In this document: positions 28,021 to 30,858 of the stretch, in pieces
Layout: each line of letters begins with the position of its first letter
Numbering within the stretch: the first letter of the stretch is position 1
Source: Candidatus Dojkabacteria bacterium
GTDB taxonomy: Bacteria; Patescibacteriota; Dojkabacteria; JAHIVN01
Assembly (NCBI GenBank): GCA_016932045.1
Contig: JAFGDO010000017.1
Span: forward strand, 1 to 32,658
Reading direction: 5' to 3'
Length of the DNA stretch: 32,658 bases
Program-made: the position numbers and the translations under genes
The notes under the pieces: model-generated
Database searches by the model: none
What the model was told of the DNA's origin: nothing
What the model saw: the letters and a program-made list of their open reading frames with translations, nothing else

Positions 28021-28162
28021 TAGTGAACCTCAACTTTTATTTTCCTTATAGCTACTGATTATGATATAAATAACGGATCTTGTAATTGGAAATTGACAAG
28101 TGTAAATTGTATAATACGTAGACAACGCTTAAGATCTTGTTTTTTAACAACTAATAGACCAA

Positions 28163-28237
28163 ATAGCTCCCCATAAAATTCCTTCGGAATTTACGGGGAA
28201 AGCAGATTAATACCTAGGGCTAATGCCAAGATAGCTC
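28163..28237 (+). repeat. ~70-bp tRNA-associated hairpin element, copy 1
   Basis: ATAGCTCCCCATAAAATTCCTTCGGAATTTACGGGGAAAGCAGAT...GGGCTAATGCCAAGATAGCTC; strong similarity to 30718-30794. Confidence 0.7.
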
Positions 28238-28257
28238 AGTGGTTAGAGCAACGGTTT
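28225..28257 (+). pseudogene. tRNA 5' half (tRNA-Thr-like), diverging at the anticodon loop
   Basis: gccaagatagctcagtggttagagcaacggttt matches tRNA-Thr(TGT) in D-arm and 5' anticodon stem; no anticodon 3' strand or T-arm follows. Confidence 0.6.
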
Positions 28258-28323: not shown

Positions 28324-28396
28324 GCCGTCTTAGCTCAGTGGTTAGAGCAACGGTTTTGTAAACCGTCGGTCCTCGGTTCGAATCCGAGAGACGGCT
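28324..28396 (+). tRNA. tRNA-Thr(TGT)
   Basis: Cloverleaf: acceptor GCCGTCT/AGACGGC, anticodon stem ACGGT/ACCGT with loop TTTGTAA, TTCGAAT T-loop; no encoded CCA. Confidence 0.95.
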
Positions 28397-28546
28397 TTTC
28401 TAGGATAAGCGTCGGCCGTGAGCATGCCCCGAATACAAACAAAGTATGTTATTTGTGGGTTGAATTTCACTCTCGGCTTACCAGTTTTCAAGAACTCAAA
28501 ATGAATAACTATTCTTTGTTCATTTATAATTATTAGTTAAATGACA

Positions 28547-28629
28547 CCAGGGGTACCGAAGTGGTCAAACGGGGCAGACTGTAAATCTGCTGGCGTAAGC
28601 CTTCGCGGGTTCGAATCCTGCCCCCTGGA
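28547..28629 (+). tRNA. tRNA-Tyr(GTA)
   Basis: Class II tRNA: acceptor CCAGGGG/CCCCTGG, anticodon GCAGA-CTGTAAA-TCTGC, long variable arm, GCGGG-TTCGAAT-CCTGC. Confidence 0.95.
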
Positions 28630-28791
28630 CTCTATCAAATCGAAGATTTGCCAGTAAATATCTGGCAGGATGAGAACCCGGTACGAGTTCGCTCAATGAG
28701 ACTTGAACTTTTCAAATGAAGTACAGAAAAGTTCAAAGTCGAATTAGTCCACCGATTTTTTCCCGCGTAGGCGGGAATACTGCCCCCTGGA
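28618..28791. repeat. Direct repeat of tRNA-Tyr 3' end flanking a hairpin-rich segment
   Basis: CTGCCCCCTGGA at 28618-28629 and 28780-28791; four inverted repeats between them. Confidence 0.55.
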
Positions 28792-30625: not shown

Positions 30626-30717
30626 TTACTCAGACTACTGTTTGCCAAATCTTTCTAATATAATATAATTCAATGTGTTGTTCCTTAAATCACAAAGTAC
30701 ATAGCTACAAAGCCGAG

Positions 30718-30794
30718 ATAGCTCCCCGTAAAATTCCTTCAGAATATACGGGGCAAGCAGATAAATTAAATCGCGGCTAATGCCGAGATAGCTC
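30718..30794 (+). repeat. ~70-bp tRNA-associated hairpin element, copy 2
   Basis: GCCGAGATAGCTC at 30712-30724 and 30782-30794 flank hairpin CCCCGTA...TACGGGG (30724-30753). Confidence 0.7.
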
Positions 30795-30858
30795 AGATGG
30801 TTAGAGCGCACCCATGGTAAGGGTGAGGTCCCGGGTTCGATTCCCGGTCTCGGCTCCA
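30782..30858 (+). tRNA. tRNA-Thr(GGT), CCA encoded
   Basis: Acceptor GCCGAGA/TCTCGGC, anticodon CACCC-ATGGTAA-GGGTG, CCGGG-TTCGATT-CCCGG, 3' TCCA. Confidence 0.95.

Follow-up and report, generated by a model that had tools for sequence, protein, structure and literature searches.

Several described systems bear on the locus analysed here. Some families of REP palindromes sit inserted inside other palindromes, and Rickettsia palindromic elements (RPE), mentioned in the same paper, are palindromic inserts within genes (PMC3733652). In sponge mitochondria, repetitive and double hairpin elements (RHE) act as lineage-specific genome invaders (PMC2800124). Sites of the Islander type combine an intact tRNA gene with a displaced fragment on the same strand, 5' fragments lying upstream and 3' fragments downstream, with subsites in the tRNA loops (PMC4383910). 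A further report describes prokaryotic tRNA gene fragments, partial and non-functional tRNA copies (PMC9897764). For CPR bacteria, a search of the open-access literature found no earlier description of tRNAs nested in one another or of tRNA copies broken by hairpins. In reduced genomes, tRNA genes are usually regarded as static single copies; RPE, for their part, are known mainly from protein genes. We report here broken tRNA copies that hold hairpins, and sometimes a whole tRNA, beside roughly one in four tRNA genes in an uncultured Dojkabacteria bacterium and its relatives.

The window, meaning the whole stretch of DNA that was analysed (32,658 nt), is an entire contig of a fragmented 1.46-Mb assembly, referred to as G000. 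In the rlmB protein, its closest named relatives share about 62-64% identity; they are metagenome assemblies assigned to Candidatus Dojkabacteria and to other Patescibacteria, and the relatives titled as Dojkabacteria are likewise metagenome assemblies. The nearest relatives of G000 belong to the same family and to another genus; G000, G001 and G002 form one family, G013 represents a second and G003 a third. All 44 tRNAs of G000 were inspected together with their flanking DNA. Rfam matches of interest comprised tRNA, tmRNA and 6S RNA only, the latter (ssrS, RF00013, 27860-28018, plus strand, 52.1 bits) lying upstream of the tRNA-Thr locus and having surfaced with permissive filters after being missed by the whole-window scan. 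Seven contigs of G000, including the window, have tRNA genes at or adjoining their termini, the pattern that breakage of the assembly at tRNA repeats would produce.

The first-pass annotation had noticed a repeated hairpin ahead of tRNA-Thr sequence, and this observation holds: local alignment pairs 28163-28249 with 30718-30807, and BLASTN between the two stretches gives 86% identity across query nt 6-83. Each copy contains a palindrome of exactly 30 nt with CCCC/GGGG ends (CCCCATAAAATTCCTTCGGAATTTACGGGG in copy 1, CCCCGTAAAATTCCTTCAGAATATACGGGG in copy 2), and chance is far from explaining two near-identical palindromes of this length at one and the same site of a tRNA. The BLASTN comparison proposed in that annotation left the count at two: no third convincing copy was found in the 1.46-Mb genome, the two other matches (15-17 nt, E 0.4-0.7) being noise, and among 58 relatives the 83-nt unit retrieved, outside G000, just tRNA 5' ends and noise, so that a sequence search alone would call the element unique.

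The context of the hairpin reveals its nature. In copy 2, the 12 nt ahead of the palindrome (GCCGAGATAGCT) are nt 1-12 of the intact tRNA-Thr(GGT), and the palindrome is followed by CA, as the tRNA has after T12, before the sequences diverge. The heptamer ATAGCTC, repeated around the hairpin and previously suggested as a possible regenerated target, belongs in copy 2 to a longer duplicated stretch, GCCGAGATAGCTC, which corresponds to tRNA nt 1-13 and starts once at 30712 and a second time at 30782; the upstream ATAGCTC is therefore the 5' end of a broken tRNA-Thr copy and not a target-site duplication. Near the end of the copy 2 spacer, ATCGCGGC may be a decayed acceptor 3' strand, judging from its complementarity to GCCGAGAT at 7 of 8 positions. 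Copy 1 has the same layout, more decayed, and adjoins a broken tRNA-Thr 5' half that ends in the anticodon loop, ahead of the intact tRNA-Thr(TGT); only copy 2 adjoins an intact tRNA. The window element is thus a broken tandem 5' tRNA-Thr copy with a 30-nt palindrome in its D arm, at T12|C13, an AGCT|CA-type site where inserts of the same length were also found in G002, beside Val-gac and beside Asn, and in G013, beside Lys-ctt. As is the case for tRNA pseudogenes or fragments, ARAGORN and Rfam call just the intact genes (Table 1). Insertion at a tRNA 5' end with regeneration of a 7-nt target, as first proposed, is not supported, given this position inside a second, broken tRNA copy. Both window copies probably descend from one insertion, later copied from one to the other of the neighbouring loci Thr-TGT and Thr-GGT through duplication or gene conversion; the refutation foreseen in the annotation, two copies explained by a single segmental duplication, thus probably applies to the exact hairpin but not to the phenomenon.

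Table 1. Coordinates of tRNA genes, tRNA remnants and hairpin inserts in the window
Feature	Position	Strand	Evidence
Decayed tRNA-Thr remnant, nt 1-12 (GACCAAATAGCT vs GCCGAGATAGCT)	28157..28168	+	sequence
Copy 1, 30-nt palindrome at T12|C13	28169..28198	+	sequence; same site and length elsewhere
Spacer AAAGCAGATTAATACCTAGGGCTAAT, common to copy 2; its end is maybe a remnant acceptor 3' strand	28199..28224	+	alignment
5' half of outer broken tRNA-Thr, stops in anticodon loop	28225..28258	+	score 52, p 0.0007
Intact tRNA-Thr(TGT), apparently nested in outer tRNA-Thr	28324..28396	+	ARAGORN, Rfam
Probable 3' part of outer tRNA-Thr, GTGGGTTGAATTTCACTCTCGGCT	28455..28478	+	by eye, weaker
Intact tRNA-Tyr(GTA)	28547..28630	+	ARAGORN, Rfam
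Double-hairpin element E (~85 nt) in T-loop of tRNA-Tyr 3' remnant	28692..28776	+	model R1, 56.7 bits
tRNA-Tyr 3' remnant, ATACTGCCCCCTGGA	28777..28791	+	sequence
tRNA-Thr remnant, nt 1-12, GCCGAGATAGCT	30712..30723	+	sequence
Copy 2, 30-nt palindrome at T12|C13	30724..30753	+	sequence; fold -11.8 kcal/mol
Spacer with possible acceptor 3' strand, ATCGCGGC	30754..30781	+	7/8 complementary to GCCGAGAT
Intact tRNA-Thr(GGT)	30782..30858	+	ARAGORN, Rfam
Outer tRNA-Trp 5' half, stops in anticodon loop	32519..32552	+	sequence
tRNA-Trp 5' part, cut by contig end	32620..32658	+	sequence

Broken cognate copies are widespread around the tRNA genes of this family. With non-cognate tRNAs as null and a cut-off of p<0.01, 11 tRNAs of G000 have a cognate fragment nearby and the two sister genomes add 11 and 10, although the events in sister genomes are not all independent, some reflecting common ancestry. 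All of these fragments (32/32) lie on the tRNA's own strand, with 5' parts upstream of the intact tRNA and 3' parts downstream, 5' fragments being no rarer than 3' fragments and the spacing between tRNA and fragment ranging from 12 to 450 nt. Strong remnants, defined by a score of at least 42 in an alignment permitting long insertions at flat cost, were found within 500 nt of 11/44 tRNAs in G000, 11/44 in G001, 8/48 in G002 and 7/43 in G013, and at this score beside none of the 39 tRNAs of G003. The corresponding null counts were 1/264, 1/264, 1/288, 0/258 and 0/234, that is 3/816 pooled over G000-G002 and 3/1074 with G013 included. The feature is therefore strong in the first of the three families and also present in the second, whereas none was seen in the third at the threshold used. 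Tandem arrays occur in yet another family, in which a tRNA-Met has two upstream copies and a tRNA-Gln three downstream T-arm copies, each copy with a multi-hairpin insert. Overall, the hairpin class was seen in four genomes representing two families; a further family and other classes of Patescibacteria contain related cases.

Only segments scoring at least 14 were used to define the strict junctions of the inserts (n=56), since jump-alignment without segment thresholds yielded long spurious chains. The D, anticodon or T loop holds 40 of them against 19.2 expected (binomial p 1.6e-8), or 46 against 24.7 when loop edges are included, junction placement being ambiguous by a few bases and settled in favour of the loops, a latitude also granted to the expected values. 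About half of the junctions then remaining (five or more) are AGCT|CA at the border of the D stem, as in the window hairpins, and the insertion sites include 12|13, the D loop, 34-36 and the T loop. Insert lengths peak at 19 (6 cases), 20 (3) and 30 nt (10), with a longer class of about 80-120 nt. When the 20-nt CCTG..CAGG palindrome is excised in silico, the rejoined segments match the intact tRNA exactly for Glu, Gly-tcc, Gly-gcc and Ser-gct, and at least 8 of the 13 such palindromes in G000 lie within tRNA remnants. Orthologous tRNA sites hold differing hairpins. The 19-, 20- and 30-nt classes, together with the longer element E described below, occupy non-homologous sites as mobile hairpins do, which is not the case for the exact window hairpin. 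The initial suggestion of a small mobile, tRNA-linked hairpin hence survives as a feature class, that of hairpins of discrete length in tRNA-derived DNA, mostly at loop tips.

Whole tRNAs are also found within broken ones. A nearly complete tRNA-Thr of G001 holds in its anticodon loop an intact tRNA-Thr(TGT), which has the inverted-repeat flanks CCCGCCTGCC / GCGGGCAGG; Thr-cgt in G001 and Trp in G002 are nested likewise, and the loci orthologous to the window Thr-TGT are clearly nested in both genomes. When the inner tRNA was masked, ARAGORN called four outer tRNAs, compared with a mean of 0.3 in mismatched controls. The Arg-tct locus of G001 combines D-loop, anticodon-loop and T-loop insertions. 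For the outer Trp 5' half at the end of the window, matching 3' halves were located at the start of two separate contigs, after an intact Trp. A near-empty site is available in G002, whose Thr-cgt gene is the uninterrupted counterpart of the outer tRNA split in G001, and more distant relatives have clean, closely spaced Thr and Tyr genes, with a Thr/Tyr/Thr cluster at one locus and two adjacent Thr genes at another. Elsewhere, one tRNA-Trp inside an outer tRNA has a leader/trailer inverted repeat of about 15 bp, AGTAAACAAATTTGC / GCAAATTTGTTTACT. tRNA-Trp genes with strongly different acceptor stems occur within one genome, two of them in G001 and at least three in G002. At three loci, the sequence ahead of tRNA-Trp or tRNA-Tyr looked like a T-box leader to the eye, but it fell below the Rfam gathering scores and was discarded.

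The insert of the tRNA-Tyr remnant, element E, recurs elsewhere. Its layout is CTCAATGAG-hairpin-GAATTAG-hairpin over about 85 nt, both constant motifs being set by the search pattern and thus not evidence in themselves. The stem between the motifs covaries, with 87.5% of cells paired vs 66.8% in shuffles and a covariation score of 0.522 vs 0.163, and both pairing and score drop when the partner is slid. No Rfam family matched E. The exact pattern was found in 7/380 genomes, other classes of the phylum included, with one match probably due to chance; in these other classes, E sits in D or anticodon loops of tRNA remnants at six loci. A model-based whole-genome search recovered 25 copies in G000-G002, 20 of which have a tRNA no more than 500 nt away, against about one expected (counted from coordinates). 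Most copies in G123 and G148 are away from tRNAs, which makes E a general dispersed element, especially tRNA-bound in the family of the window. At seven loci of G123 and G148, E, when read on the opposite strand, ends just before a Shine-Dalgarno-like GAGGTG; it also adjoins a tRNA 5' end at three loci and a tmRNA 5' end at one. Placed in this way, E might be a leader element.

The presence of a tandem remnant and its polarity need only a tandem duplication that breaks inside the tRNA, or an equivalent event, whereas the inserts need more than duplication, being recurrent, discrete, self-complementary units at hairpin tips where the target is not duplicated. We consider it somewhat probable that mobile hairpin repeats insert in the loops of spare tandem tRNA copies, their mobility being putative. 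A tRNA gene region would duplicate in tandem, one copy becoming dispensable; hairpin repeats would move into the tips of existing hairpins, without target-site duplication and with tRNA arms favoured; selection would keep only the insertions falling in the spare copy, or those bringing or leaving a working cognate tRNA; and the dead copy would decay afterwards. A Y1 transposase (PF01797) was considered as the mover and appears improbable, being uncorrelated with the remnants: G000 gives four weak matches to this family, and G013, which has remnants, gives none. More tentatively, and in our opinion doubtfully, the transposing elements could include tRNA genes flanked by inverted repeats, intact tRNAs hopping into the anticodon loops of their cognates and replacing them through a putative enzyme that would recognise tRNA-like stem-loops in single-stranded or cruciform DNA.

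It is unlikely that the whole pattern results from tandem or segmental tRNA duplication and decay with immobile hairpins that arose on the spot, when replication slipped or switched template at tRNA hairpins. The polarity and the duplicated leaders of a Pro and a Met locus fit a duplication breakpoint within the tRNA, and the window hairpin consists of two copies inside one similarity stretch; however, tRNAs and genomes that are unrelated share the same palindromes, whose lengths are fixed and whose excision is clean, and E is a conserved covarying element. A functional tRNA leader or precursor, whose outer shell and extended arms would guide processing or regulate the intact tRNA with loop positions under selection, appears improbable. 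Such a role would agree with the recurrence of the nested form, which two or three genomes have at Arg-tct, Trp and Thr-tgt, with inverted repeats that prolong the acceptor stem of the inner tRNA and with nt 25 as a frequent remnant end; yet only a minority of tRNAs carry these structures, outer halves decay (Thr-tgt in G002), different hairpins stand at orthologous sites, and the clean clusters of relatives show that the architecture is not required. Leftovers of tyrosine-integrase islands, namely tRNA fragments displaced by islands since collapsed, are very improbable: although the orientation rule and the anticodon-loop and T-loop subsites are shared with Islander sites (PMC4383910), the intervals of 12-450 nt are too short for an integrase gene and far from the >2 kb of an island, no integrase lies between, 5' fragments equal 3' fragments in frequency, and the inserts lie within the fragment with the loop core not duplicated. 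RNA introns spliced out of functional outer tRNAs are hardly credible, even though the inserts sit in loops and some outer tRNAs, among them Thr-tgt of G001, are nearly whole, as each needed isotype checked in G000 has an intact gene (Trp being split over contig ends) instead of a sole interrupted copy, most remnants lack half the tRNA, the sites differ from the 37/38 or BHB position, and the stretches scanned with Rfam gave no match to an intron family.

Insertion of mobile hairpins into spare tRNA copies, the reading we prefer, would change the view of these loci: many tRNA genes here stand beside a graveyard of hairpin-filled cognate copies and several working tRNAs lie within a broken cognate, a pattern suggesting that tRNAs turn over frequently and that a class of mobile hairpins finds its targets by structure and not by sequence. 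Caution is needed, as such loci will make tRNA finders miscall and assemblers break contigs. Compared with the REP/BIME palindromes (GTAG/CGTC, RAYT-associated), the inserts are likewise short dispersed palindromes and behave in part like the REP families inserted in other palindromes, but their targets are tRNA arms and Y1 transposase does not correlate with them; neither window hairpin carries a GTAG/CGTC tag at its end, and two copies in 1.46 Mb do not amount to a REP-like copy number. By their description, RPE resemble them as palindromic inserts inside genes. Islander islands share the displaced same-strand fragment but differ in having an island and an integrase, where we find short spacing and hairpins within the fragment. 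With RHE, the common point is the hairpin and double-hairpin units, the present ones being bacterial and concentrated in the loops of tRNA copies, with whole tRNAs nested. Relative to prokaryotic tRNA gene fragments, the copies described here are distinguished by loop-specific hairpin insertion and by nesting.
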